This document shows, one piece after another, positions 20,537 to 25,103 of a DNA stretch of 26,845 nt (position 1 is the stretch's first letter; each line of letters begins with the position of its first letter). The position numbers were made by a program, and so were the translations under genes. The notes beneath the pieces are model-generated. The model saw only the letters and a list, made by a program, of their open reading frames with translations. It was not told the DNA's origin and searched no databases. Source of the DNA: a virus; the IMG/VR virus record IMGVR_UViG_3300034998_000106, positions 1 through 26,845 of that record; one strand, 5' to 3'.

Positions 20537-20986
20537 ATGAGTAAAAAGCAGAAACAATTAGTTATCTGCCCATACTGCGGTAACCCTGCAGAGCTCAGCC
20601 CCGGTAATGAAATATACTTTGGACGCAAGGAAACAGAGGATCGATGGTTTTGGGAATGCGTACCATGTGGTGCCCACGTTGGCGCGCACGCTAACAGCCC
20701 TAGCCACAAACCAATGGGCGGGCTAGCAAAACCCGAGCTGAGAACGGCAAGGGCGGAAGCGCACCGGGTATTCGACCCGTTGTGGTTAGAAACCAGTATG
20801 AGCAGAACTGCAGCGTACCGATGGCTTGCGGACGAGCTTGGGATAGGTCGGCACAACTGCCACATAGGTTATTTCAACTTGGAGTGGTGCGAGAGAACCA
20901 TTTCTATGGAAAGAAAAATACGCGCAATGATTCGAAGAAGGCGCAAAGAAGCAAAGCAACCGAGGAACGAAGGAACTACGAAATGA
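20537..20986 (+). CDS. Zinc-finger protein, DUF3268-like, coupled to dpdA
   Basis: 149 residues from the ATG at 20537, preferred over an upstream TTG; AGGTG lies just before it. Two CxxC pairs (Cys11/Cys14, Cys41/Cys44) form a zinc ribbon. The continuation CGAHVGAHANSP and SRTAAYRWLADELGI...HIGYF with a basic end matches the DUF3268 family as I know it. The gene shares an ATGA overlap with dpdA, so the two proteins are probably made together. Function unknown; a DNA-binding partner of DpdA is a plausible idea from context. Confidence 0.85.
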   Translation: MSKKQKQLVICPYCGNPAELSPGNEIYFGRKETEDRWFWECVPCGAHVGAHANSPSHKPMGGLAKPELRTARAEAHRVFDPLWLETSMSRTAAYRWLADELGIGRHNCHIGYFNLEWCERTISMERKIRAMIRRRRKEAKQPRNEGTTK

Positions 20987-21900
20987 GAATATACCTAGCC
21001 GGATTATATACCGCAAGCTTTAACATTGGCGGCAAGAAGTATAATGATCTAAGCGAAAAAGAAAAAGCCGACCGCAGGGGTGCTGAATGGAAGCTGGAAT
21101 CCTACCACTATGTACACCGCCAATCCTATGTGGATAAGATGCGTAACGATGGCGTTAAGATCTTTCTGGATTCCGGTGCCTTCTCTGCTTTTACCCAAGG
21201 AGCTACCATCGATATCGCGGGCTACTGTAACTACATTAAGGAAAACGCAGATATCATTCAGGTGGAAGATGGGGCGGTTATGGCATCGGTGTTGGATAGC
21301 ATCGGGGACGCACAAGGAACCTATGATAATCAGAAAACTATGGAAGGCTTGGGAGTTCGCCCGCTACCCTGTTTCCACTATGGGGAAGATCCGAAGTTCC
21401 TAGAATATTACGTGGCAAATTATAGCTACATTACCTTGGGTGGTATGGTTGCGCAATCCACAAAGGATCTCTTAATTTGGCTGGATGAAATGTGGGAAAA
21501 ATACCTAACCGATGGTTCTGGCAGACCGAAAACAAAGGTTCACGCGTTTGGTGTAACCACACCATTGCTAATGAAACGCTATCCGTGGTTCAGCGTGGAT
21601 TCCTCCTCGTGGGTTCAGGTTTCTGCGAACGGCTCAATCCTATTCAACGGTAAGGCACTAGCGATATCAGATCAGAGCCCTAGCAGAAAAGTTCATAACC
21701 AGCACTATAATACAATAAGCCCACCGATGCAAGCGGCGGTTCTGAAGCAATTAACCGAGGAAGGCTATTGCGTAGAGAGGCTAGCTACCGAATACGCCTC
21801 CCGATGGGTTTATAATGTGTTCGCATTCGGGGAGATGCACAAAACCTTTCCCCCATACGAGGACGCGAGATGGGTTCAGGATCAGATGGGGCTTTTTTAA
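20983..21900 (+). CDS. dpdA: DpdA-like DNA guanine transglycosylase
   Basis: 305 residues from the ATG at 20983. DpdA proteins are relatives of tRNA-guanine transglycosylase that swap guanine in DNA for a 7-deazaguanine. FLDSGAFSAF (Asp63) matches the first catalytic Asp segment of TGTs, HAFGVTTPLL (187-196) the substrate-binding region, and FSVDSSSWV (Asp206) the nucleophile segment. The tRNA-type zinc motif CxCxxC is absent, as expected for DpdA. The last five residues, QMGLF, resemble the bacterial sliding-clamp-binding motif. The start has AAGGA about 10 bases upstream and an ATGA overlap with the DUF3268-like gene. The precursor genes lie immediately upstream. Confidence 0.92.
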   Translation: MRIYLAGLYTASFNIGGKKYNDLSEKEKADRRGAEWKLESYHYVHRQSYVDKMRNDGVKIFLDSGAFSAFTQGATIDIAGYCNYIKENADIIQVEDGAVMASVLDSIGDAQGTYDNQKTMEGLGVRPLPCFHYGEDPKFLEYYVANYSYITLGGMVAQSTKDLLIWLDEMWEKYLTDGSGRPKTKVHAFGVTTPLLMKRYPWFSVDSSSWVQVSANGSILFNGKALAISDQSPSRKVHNQHYNTISPPMQAAVLKQLTEEGYCVERLATEYASRWVYNVFAFGEMHKTFPPYEDARWVQDQMGLF

Positions 21901-22160
21901 TGGATGTGGTAATAGCTTTCTTCGTACCGATGATCTATGTATTCCTGCGGGTGTTCCAACAGCGCAATGTTGCCAACGAGCAGTATACATGGATTATTGG
22001 AACCTCTTACTTGATAACCGCGTTTGAGATAGTTAATATTACTCTAATCGTTTCGAGGGGGTGGGAATTATACATACCCCTCAGCGCCGGCGCCGCGATT
22101 GGATCTACCGTGGCGGTTTATACTCACAAAAGGATAGTTAGAAATGTTAGAAGCACTTAA
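21900..22160 (+). CDS. Small three-helix membrane protein
   Basis: 86 residues from the ATG at 21900, which overlaps the dpdA stop as TAATG. Three hydrophobic segments are apparent: about 2-19, 31-52 and 57-75 (LYIPLSAGAAIGSTVAVY), with a basic C-terminal tail (THKRIVRNVR). The C-terminus overlaps the clamp gene by 17 bases. No family is recognised. Its place between DNA modification and replication genes is unusual for a membrane protein; membrane anchoring, transport or superinfection functions are open possibilities. Confidence 0.8.
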   Translation: MDVVIAFFVPMIYVFLRVFQQRNVANEQYTWIIGTSYLITAFEIVNITLIVSRGWELYIPLSAGAAIGSTVAVYTHKRIVRNVRST

Positions 22161-23097
22161 ATTTGTTCAGGGGGCAGTAGCTTCCAAGGGCTTTGCCCCG
22201 GAGCTTACCCACTTCTGTATTAGGGACGGTTACGTAAAGGGGTTTAACGGCTCCCTCGCGCTCTCTAGCCCTATTGAATTGGATATCGAAGCTACCCCGA
22301 AGGCTGTGCCATTCATTAAGGCTATACAGGCGTGCAGGGGCGAGACAGCGCTGCACCTTTCCAAGGCTGGCAGGCTTGGTATTAAATCAGGAAAGTTTAA
22401 AGCGTTTATCAATTGCATTGATCAGGAATACCCCGATGTGGAGCCAGAAGGGGAAAAGGTAGAGATTAGTGGGTCTTTCGTAAAGCACCTGAGGGTGATC
22501 CTTCCTTTCGTGGCTGAGGATGCATCCCGCCCGTGGTCGCGGGGTATATTGCTAGAAGGTAAAACCGCCACCGCTACCAATAACATTATTATACTGCAGA
22601 AATGGCTCAGCGAACCATTTCCTATCCGGGTTAACCTGCCCCTAGCCGCGGCTCGGGAGCTGGTAAGAATTAAGGAGGAACCTACCCACTTTAGCCTAAC
22701 TGAAAACACCATAAGCTTTTACTACGAGGACGGTAGGTGGTTGCGCACCAACCTAATTGATCAACCTTGGCCGGACATCTCCCCTATCCTAGAACGCCCC
22801 GCGGAGGTGGCAAGCTTCCCTGAAGGGTTCTTCCAATCGGTGGAAGACGTTATCCCATTTCTGGATGAGGCTAATACCCTACGGTTTAAAGATGGGGTAA
22901 TGAAAACCTCTGAAGAGGAAGGGGACGGCGCTTCTGTGGAGTACCCCGAGATTACAGAGAACTTTGCCTTTAACGGAAAGCAGCTTCTCAAACTTGCGGG
23001 GGTTGCCGATACTATAGATTTTAGTCTTTACCCTGCACCTTGCCTGTTCTTTGGGGATTCCTTAAGAGGGGCTATTGTAGGGATGCGTATAGAATGA
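22144..23097 (+). CDS. Sliding clamp (DNA polymerase III beta-like)
   Basis: 317 residues. The protein resembles phage beta-clamp-like proteins: DGYVKGFNGSLALSSPIELD at the N-terminus, CRGETALHLSKAGRLGIKSG, and repeating beta-strand/helix units with PWPDI before the third domain. It is shorter than E. coli DnaN (366). Likely role: a processivity ring for the phage family A polymerase encoded next, with an ATGA overlap. AAAAGGA lies before the ATG. No clamp-loader gene is obvious, so host loader or self-loading would be needed. Confidence 0.8.
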   Translation: MLEALKFVQGAVASKGFAPELTHFCIRDGYVKGFNGSLALSSPIELDIEATPKAVPFIKAIQACRGETALHLSKAGRLGIKSGKFKAFINCIDQEYPDVEPEGEKVEISGSFVKHLRVILPFVAEDASRPWSRGILLEGKTATATNNIIILQKWLSEPFPIRVNLPLAAARELVRIKEEPTHFSLTENTISFYYEDGRWLRTNLIDQPWPDISPILERPAEVASFPEGFFQSVEDVIPFLDEANTLRFKDGVMKTSEEEGDGASVEYPEITENFAFNGKQLLKLAGVADTIDFSLYPAPCLFFGDSLRGAIVGMRIE

Positions 23098-25103
23098 GAG
23101 ATGATTCCATTGGTATGTTCTGGCAAGATATTCCGGCTGTTAAGGGGACGGAAAGGAAGGCAGCTGTTATGCCCGATATCCCCGATACTGGCTGGGTTAA
23201 GCCAACCTCTTTCCCCGATTTATCCACATCCTCTATTATTTCTCTGGATACCGAGACCTACGATCCAGAGCTAACTGATTACGGTCCCGGTTGGGCTAGG
23301 GGGAAAGGGCACATAGTTGGGGTATCCGTTGGGGACGATAAAGGCAACGCGTGGTATTACCCAATGCGCCATGAGATTCGCCCAGAGGAAAACTTCGACC
23401 CGGAGGTGGTTCTAGCTTGGCTTCGAGTTCAGCTTAGTAATCCAAAGCAACCGAAGGTTGGGGCTAATATTATCTACGATATCGGCTGGCTGAAGCAGGA
23501 AGGGGTAGAAGTAGCGGGAATTTGCTATGATGTGCAGTACGCGGAAGCGCTGTTGCATGAAGCGGAAACTGTAGCGCTAGAAGATCTAGGGCAGCGATAC
23601 TTAAACCTAGGTAAGGAATCCAGCTTGCTGTATCAGTGGTGTTCCAATTACTACGGGGGATCGGCAACTGGAAAGCAGCGGAAGAATATCTATCGCACCC
23701 CGCCATCGCTTACCGGGTTCTATGCGGAATCCGATGCGTACCTACCTGTGGAGATCCTTCGCAAACAATGGCCGCTTCTGGTAGCAGAGGGGCTTATAGA
23801 TCTATTCGTTATGGAATGCGAGCTGATGCCCCTATACGTTTCAATGCGTTTTGCGGGGGTTACGGTAAACATCGATTATGCCGAGCAGCTTAAGGATAGG
23901 TTATCCGGACGGGAAAAAGAGTTCCAGAAGCAGCTTGAATCGCTGGTAGGGTTCGGCGTTAATGTTAACGCTGGGGATAGCCTGAAGAAAGTTTTCGATT
24001 CGCAAGGGCTGCAATACCCAACTACGGCGAAAGGCAATGCAAGCTTTACCAAGCAATTCCTGGAGGGGCTAGAGCACCCGGTTGGTAACATGATCCGAGA
24101 AATACGTTCTCACCAGAAGCTGAGAAGTACCTTTGTGGAAAGCTATATCCTAGATTCCCACGTAAACGGAAAGGTTTACGGGCAGTTCCATCCCCTACGC
24201 GGGGAAGGGGGCGGCACCCGGTCTGGCAGGTATAGCAGCTCCACGCCAAACCTGCAGAACATCCCATCTCGGGACCCGGTTCTTGCGCCAATGATACGCG
24301 GGCTATTTATCCCGGACGTAGGGCATCGCGCGTGGAGAAAATACGATTACTCCCAAATCGAGTACCGCTTTATGATCCACTTCGCGGTAGGTATGGCTGG
24401 GGACAGAGCAAGGAAAATGTTTAATGATAACCCAGACCTAGATTACCACGACTTTGCGCAAGACCTTGTTCATAGCAAGCTGGGTATAATGATACCGCGG
24501 AAATCTATTAAGGGGATCAACTTCGGGCTTATCTATGGTATGGGGCAAGCGAAGCTGGGTGCAGGGCTTGGGCTTAGTAAAAAAGAATCCAAGGACCTCT
24601 TTGAATCCTATTTCGACGCTGTGGATTTCGCGAAGCCAACAATGGAGCAAGCTATGAAGGAAGCGCAAACCACAGGGGTTATACGTACCATCATGGGGCG
24701 GAAGTCGAGATTCGATTTGTGGGAGCCGACGCAATGGGACAGTAACAGCGTCGCTATGCCCCTAGATAAGGCGTTACGCGAGCACAGTAGCATTAGGAGG
24801 GCTTATACGCACAAAGCGTTAAATCGCAAGCTACAGGGCAGTGCTGCGGACCAGATGAAAATGGCTATGCATAAGTGTTACAAGGATGGGGTATTCGATG
24901 AAACTGGGGTACCTAGGCTTACTGTCCACGATGAGCTAGATTTTTCCGACCCCGGAGGTCGCAATAAAGCATTCGAAGAAATGAAGCATATAATGGAAAC
25001 GGCTTTGCCGCTGCTAATCCCAGTTAAAGCGGACGGAGAAATTGGTGCAGACTGGGGGCATATAACCGATATAGGTTCGGAAGAATCTAAGGCTTTCATG
25101 TAG
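23094..25103 (+). CDS. Family A DNA polymerase with 3'-5' exonuclease
   Basis: 669 residues from the ATG at 23094, which overlaps the clamp stop as ATGA. Exo I is LDTET (Asp52, Glu54), Exo II N125-x3-D129 (GANIIYDIGW), Exo III Y210-x3-D214. Polymerase motif A is DYSQIEYR from Asp418, motif B R469-x3-K473-x2-NFGLIYG, and motif C VHDE at 611-614. All catalytic residues for both activities are present. No 5' nuclease domain is seen. This is the replicative polymerase and probably uses the adjacent clamp. Confidence 0.95.
   Translation: MRDDSIGMFWQDIPAVKGTERKAAVMPDIPDTGWVKPTSFPDLSTSSIISLDTETYDPELTDYGPGWARGKGHIVGVSVGDDKGNAWYYPMRHEIRPEENFDPEVVLAWLRVQLSNPKQPKVGANIIYDIGWLKQEGVEVAGICYDVQYAEALLHEAETVALEDLGQRYLNLGKESSLLYQWCSNYYGGSATGKQRKNIYRTPPSLTGFYAESDAYLPVEILRKQWPLLVAEGLIDLFVMECELMPLYVSMRFAGVTVNIDYAEQLKDRLSGREKEFQKQLESLVGFGVNVNAGDSLKKVFDSQGLQYPTTAKGNASFTKQFLEGLEHPVGNMIREIRSHQKLRSTFVESYILDSHVNGKVYGQFHPLRGEGGGTRSGRYSSSTPNLQNIPSRDPVLAPMIRGLFIPDVGHRAWRKYDYSQIEYRFMIHFAVGMAGDRARKMFNDNPDLDYHDFAQDLVHSKLGIMIPRKSIKGINFGLIYGMGQAKLGAGLGLSKKESKDLFESYFDAVDFAKPTMEQAMKEAQTTGVIRTIMGRKSRFDLWEPTQWDSNSVAMPLDKALREHSSIRRAYTHKALNRKLQGSAADQMKMAMHKCYKDGVFDETGVPRLTVHDELDFSDPGGRNKAFEEMKHIMETALPLLIPVKADGEIGADWGHITDIGSEESKAFM

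Follow-up and report, generated by a model that had tools for sequence, protein, structure and literature searches.

DNA polymerase II (Pol II) of Escherichia coli carries QLGLF (residues 779–783), an established clamp-binding motif whose Leu-Phe pair inserts into the groove of the beta clamp, and changing it to QLGAA shortens residence (PMC3716654, PMC5731819). Among phages, the alpha-glucosyltransferase (alpha-GT) of T4 co-purifies with the gp45 clamp, and a role alongside replication has been proposed for it; according to a 2026 study, however, the alpha-GT share of glucosylation depends mainly on the strength of promoter and translation and not on clamp binding (PMC13216743). The phage 7-deazaguanine systems of 9g, CAjan and Dp-1, with the gene set FolE-QueD-QueE-QueC-DpdA, use the same enzyme family as the locus described here (PMC6884629), and the DpdA of bacterial Dpd systems (NF041059) embodies the same enzymatic idea at distant homology.

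The window analyzed here is a stretch of 26 845 nucleotides of viral DNA (IMG/VR record IMGVR_UViG_3300034998_000106, positions 1 to 26 845), which encodes a DpdA that has, like Pol II, Q-x-G-L-F at the extreme C-terminus on a flexible end. Pol II is a polymerase with shown binding to the host clamp, whereas DpdA is a base-exchange enzyme, the clamp would be that of the phage, and binding is putative. DpdA resembles the T4 alpha-GT as a phage DNA-modifying enzyme putatively linked to the phage's own sliding clamp, but gp45 belongs to another clamp family, and enzyme and chemistry are unrelated. In the phage deazaguanine literature we found no link between DpdA and a clamp, a full-text search with both terms returning only incidental co-mentions (subscription papers lay outside its scope); the first-pass annotation likewise knew of no description of replisome coupling for DpdA. 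The T4 alpha-GT is a precedent for this kind of coupling.

We consider it probable that the tail of phage DpdA holds the enzyme on the phage clamp, where it modifies newly replicated DNA. How phage guanine is modified in time to escape restriction has so far been unexplained, and the clamp motif of DpdA offers a directly testable answer. If this is true, replication-coupled modification would recur among phages and not be a peculiarity of T4. The locus would also offer an accessible phage clamp interactome, comprising DpdA, two polymerase families and perhaps QueC.

The dpdA gene, the clamp and their neighbors

The features of the locus are given in Table 1. The dpdA product matches phrog_887 (phage queuine tRNA-ribosyltransferase) and scores 16.6 bits against the bacterial DpdA equivalog NF041059, for which the curated cut-off is 200; by its sequence, the window DpdA is a separate, phage-type subfamily, apart from the bacterial Dpd DpdA. 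D63 (DSGAFS) and D206 (SVDSSSW), which we take, by analogy with TGT, to be the two catalytic aspartates, are invariant in an alignment of 24 sequences that includes Streptococcus phage Dp-1. The translation of 20983–21900 ends in YEDARWVQDQMGLF, followed by the stop codon TAA (21898–21900), and the last five residues of the tail WVQDQMGLF are exactly those pointed out in the first-pass annotation. The gene order described there, an overlapping string with a clamp gene 243 bases past the dpdA stop and then a polymerase, also stands: the successive starts are at 21900, 22144 and 23094, and the ORF beginning at 22144 matches phrog_947 ('DNA polymerase processivity factor'). The intervening holin-like ORF overlaps the dpdA stop by one base, and the clamp gene overlaps the start of the family-A polymerase at 23094. 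This small ORF is missing or replaced in many relatives, and the dpdA-clamp junction is direct in L008, L009, L013, L016 and L017.

Table 1. Positions of the features discussed, in the window or, where a locus is named, in that relative
Feature	Position	Strand	Basis
dpdA, phage-type DNA-guanine transglycosylase, 305 aa	20983..21900	+	phrog_887 E 7.1e-73; tblastn
DpdA C-terminal tail W297-V-Q-D-Q-M-G-L-F305	21871..21897	+	aromatic at -8 and clamp-binding-like QMGLF; column information, pLDDT
QMGLF codons CAG ATG GGG CTT TTT	21883..21897	+	sequence
Small membrane (holin-like) ORF, 86 aa, between dpdA and clamp	21900..22160	+	phrog_7045 E 2.6e-8
Phage sliding clamp, 317 aa, DnaN-like fold	22144..23097	+	phrog_947 E 5.6e-69; Foldseek; profile matches to beta clamps
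Clamp groove segment T145-N-N-I-I-I150	22576..22593	+	aligned with E. coli T172-L177
Clamp groove segment P210-...-I215	22771..22788	+	aligned with E. coli P242-V247
Clamp C-terminal groove strand A310-I-V-G-M-R315	23071..23088	+	aligned by eye with E. coli V360-R365
Family-A DNA polymerase	23094..25103	+	PF00476 E 5.4e-60
Polymerase N-terminal MRDDSIGMFWQD, proposed clamp tether	23094..23129	+	G[LMF]FW-type element
QueC with clamp-like motif	L007:1679-2530, L008:1289-2140, L028:1821-2672, L042:552-1358, L040:1206-1970, L073:2035-3489		

The clamp scores 12.7 bits against the DnaN equivalog TIGR00663 (cut-off 137.65), and PDB searches with the single sequences of DpdA and the clamp gave no match; a profile of 28 phage clamps matched DnaN chains by sequence. 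The predicted clamp model has the three-domain DnaN fold, with DnaN 6d46 as its best Foldseek match (E 1.1e-20, 374 aligned columns, whole length), and judged from sequence comparison the window clamp is a divergent phage subfamily of DnaN type. T145 and P210, which correspond to T172 and P242 of E. coli, are invariant in all 66 phage clamps compared, and the positions of E. coli L177, V247 and M362 are occupied mostly by L/I/V, V/I/L and V/I, respectively (M362 aligned by eye). Since the groove-equivalent positions are hydrophobic or invariant, the hydrophobic groove of the putative partner is present in principle. The possibility raised earlier, that the pocket for QLxLF might be absent from the 317-residue clamp, was not borne out, the protein being DnaN-like over its whole length with conserved groove positions.

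Two single chains were modeled with AlphaFold2, namely a read-through fusion of DpdA, linker and clamp (20 paired rows) and a chain of DpdA tail, linker and clamp from the relative L042. In the former the clamp is confident and the motif has pLDDT values below 50 from residue 301. In both chains the clamp folds well and the motif is left undocked, with pLDDT below 50; single-chain modeling is not designed to predict complexes and was run without a positive control. The models support a disordered end of the DpdA tail and lend no support to docking. Together with the unconserved linker, the low pLDDT from residue 301 places the motif in flexible sequence, as is typical of clamp-binding motifs, which mostly lie near a terminus.

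Conservation of the DpdA tail

By tblastn, relatives of DpdA were found in 226 phage records. Neighborhoods were compared across annotated phage records and IMG/VR and genome loci (29 loci first, about 118 DpdAs in total), and 59 DpdAs with less than 75% mutual identity formed the non-redundant set. All 59 have an [LF]F ending at most 12 residues from the stop, and 54 have Q at -3 or -4; in 15 of the 59 the Q is shifted by one position toward the end (QxLF), which departs from the strict consensus, and in 16 extra residues, up to 10 or 11, follow the LF motif. With the tails anchored on LF (n = 59), F and L are the most conserved columns (F0 4.19 bits, L-1 3.98 bits), the aromatic at -8, Q-4 and G/E-2 have 2.86, 2.33 and 2.03 bits, and most remaining tail and linker columns have about 0.4–1.1 bits; the preceding linker is unconserved and variable in length. 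The consensus is roughly [FYW]-x(2)-[DE]-Q-x-[GE]-L-F, a smaller class ending in ...x-Q-E-L-F, and in the alignment of 24 sequences F305 is invariant and L304 nearly so. The tail therefore carries a QL[SD]LF-like pentapeptide with dominant L and F, and the exact QLGLF ending occurs in two relatives, L041 and L046. The aromatic eight residues before the last F (W297, window 21871–21873) is F in 46 of the 59 DpdAs, and perhaps provides an extra clamp contact or anchors the tail on DpdA.

The DpdA of Dp-1, which is 27–28% identical to that of the window, keeps the motif as QRRLF, and Dp-1 has its own clamp. Profile searches for distant relatives added 80 and 29 loci. Deep branches, the Dp-1-like one included, often end in LF, FF or LW (KQKSLF, YQKTLF, QNRLF, TQINLF, EQHGLF and KQSLW), and many Dp-1-like tails have no Q. 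The first-pass annotation had proposed an alignment of homologs to test the conservation of the ending; the motif is kept in close and distant homologs that retain the clamp gene. Deep branches also often have GFGL-type endings, and the DpdAs of L119 and L156 end in QKGLGLI and KGFGLI; these recall the Pol IV clamp motif QLVLGL, and are perhaps a different solution for the same groove. In the actinophage-type DpdAs the motif is absent and the endings are of unrelated sequence. Cellulophaga phage phi3ST:2 has the clamp and a short DpdA (240 aa) without the motif; a CxxCxxCC protein encoded just upstream of its dpdA ends in QVNLF (L032:3233-3886).

Nearly all close relatives have the clamp gene beside dpdA, and the order dpdA, (small gene), clamp, polymerase recurs in the 29 first loci and among the roughly 118 DpdAs overall. 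The phrog_947 clamp is present in 32 of 39 distant records of motif-bearing branches, as well as in Dp-1 and phi3ST:2; it was found in none of 20 and none of three (Cracklewink, Finch and Ares) actinophage-type records, the DpdAs of which lack the motif. The clamp-motif association has a Fisher p of 1.9e-4 with kinship ignored, but it is not significant after kinship correction, because the DpdA tree has no more than three changes in clamp presence (three independent contrasts); from these sequences the link between clamp presence and the motif is suggestive only. In the comparison of phages with and without a clamp, proposed earlier, the motif is found in clamp-bearing branches and is absent from the actinophage type, in whose records no clamp was found; five records with LF tails have no detected clamp, and ten distant clamp-bearing phages have other hydrophobic DpdA endings or none. 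One of those five records is a 7.4-kb fragment, and PCNA was not found in any of them.

Other readings of the ending

Among 1448 other non-redundant ORFs of the same loci, three end in LF, nine carry LF no more than three residues from the end, and one has a Q-x(1-3)-LF ending. DpdA is alone among 21 ORF families (at least eight non-redundant members each) in having an LF-type ending. A chance origin of QMGLF is ruled out by the 59 of 59 [LF]F endings against three of 1448 in this background, and the earlier caveat that a five-residue match could arise by chance is thereby removed. A Shine-Dalgarno sequence (CAGGAGCTNTTYTAATG) serving the next, overlapping gene could instead have fixed the conserved ending: QELF is frequently encoded by CAG GAG CTN TTY, the ATG of the following gene then overlapping the stop, and E at -2 is mostly GAG. 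However, LF is retained in all 24 DpdAs where no start codon lies at the stop, in Dp-1 a terminator occupies that place, and the invariant LF codons lie outside the Shine-Dalgarno part. The L of the motif uses all six Leu codons, and Q is CAG in 24 cases and CAA in 30. This reading is refuted for L and F by the codon mix and the cases without a downstream start, and as an account of the whole ending we regard it as barely conceivable; a minor influence on the residues at -2 and -3 is possible. The motif persists without a gene touching the stop, with mixed codons and with added residues, which excludes both a ribosome-binding site in disguise and a signal that has to be strictly C-terminal. 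Short hydrophobic C-termini can act as degrons, but 16 of the 59 have residues beyond the motif, the ending follows the clamp-motif consensus and a clamp gene adjoins; a degradation signal, or a localization signal of another kind, is therefore very improbable.

The tail might also pack on DpdA itself or mediate dimerization, LF being conserved for the enzyme fold. The aromatic at -8 is conserved besides LF, so that selection may reach beyond the clamp motif, and the DpdA model is confident to about residue 300. We nevertheless judge this improbable, since the linker varies freely in length and sequence, up to 10 or 11 residues come after LF, the motif is predicted to be disordered, and a whole DpdA clade lacks it. 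It is unlikely, if somewhat less so, that the motif binds the host beta clamp and not that of the phage. It fits the bacterial consensus (Pol II QLGLF), and five LF-tailed DpdAs come from records without a detected clamp; yet dpdA adjoins the phage's own clamp gene, and the actinophage-type phages, in which no clamp was found and which would depend on that of the host, are without the motif.

In the preferred reading, tethering to the phage clamp, the flexible tail of DpdA would end in a short linear motif that binds the clamp. L304 and F305 would enter the hydrophobic groove of the DnaN-like clamp encoded by the phage, and Q301 would touch the clamp rim, as with QLGLF of E. coli Pol II on beta. 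The clamp, loaded with the phage polymerase on newly made DNA, would hold DpdA on the nascent duplex, and preQ0 or a derivative would replace G shortly after synthesis and ahead of host restriction. The analysis establishes the motif with its conservation, its independence of the start signal of the next gene and its predicted disorder, as well as the DnaN fold and groove positions of the clamp and the gene order; we infer the DpdA-clamp binding, the phage rather than the host clamp as partner, and the timing of modification.

Clamp-like motifs on polymerases and pathway enzymes

In 100 of 106 loci, an ORF downstream of the clamp opens with a sequence of the type M[RS]xDxxG[LMFI]FW[EQ]D, a count somewhat favored by use of the pattern in finding the start. 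This N-terminal element, whose core G-[LM]-F corresponds to the final residues of QMGLF, is common to family-A polymerases (PF00476, phrog_17) and to the phrog_1252 family (annotated PolB), the bodies of which have no mutual BLAST match. For one short element on two unrelated polymerases beside a single clamp, a clamp tether is the best explanation, and the G[LMF]FW element is probably such a tether, transferable and kept through polymerase swaps. A further element, P-x-x-W-x-x-P-x-YLP-x-L, follows the polymerase N-terminus in both families (L003-L118).

A canonical clamp-like motif occurs in six of 54 QueC ORFs, approximately four independent cases, against one of 1073 other plus-strand ORFs (Fisher 6e-8, kinship ignored). 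It is N-terminal in some relatives (MSEQQLELF, MTQQLELF) and C-terminal in others (QLSLF, QLELEF). That the whole deazaguanine pathway is gathered on the phage clamp, including the preQ0-making QueC, so that the base would be both made and inserted at the fork, is a rather doubtful extension. GTP cyclohydrolase (FolE) has an N-terminal QLQLEL or QDELF in two relatives (L016:3333-3956 and L078:3411-4133). The QueC ORF of L073 (2035-3489) is split by an in-frame LAGLIDADG domain (PF00961), by appearance an intein or an inserted homing endonuclease.
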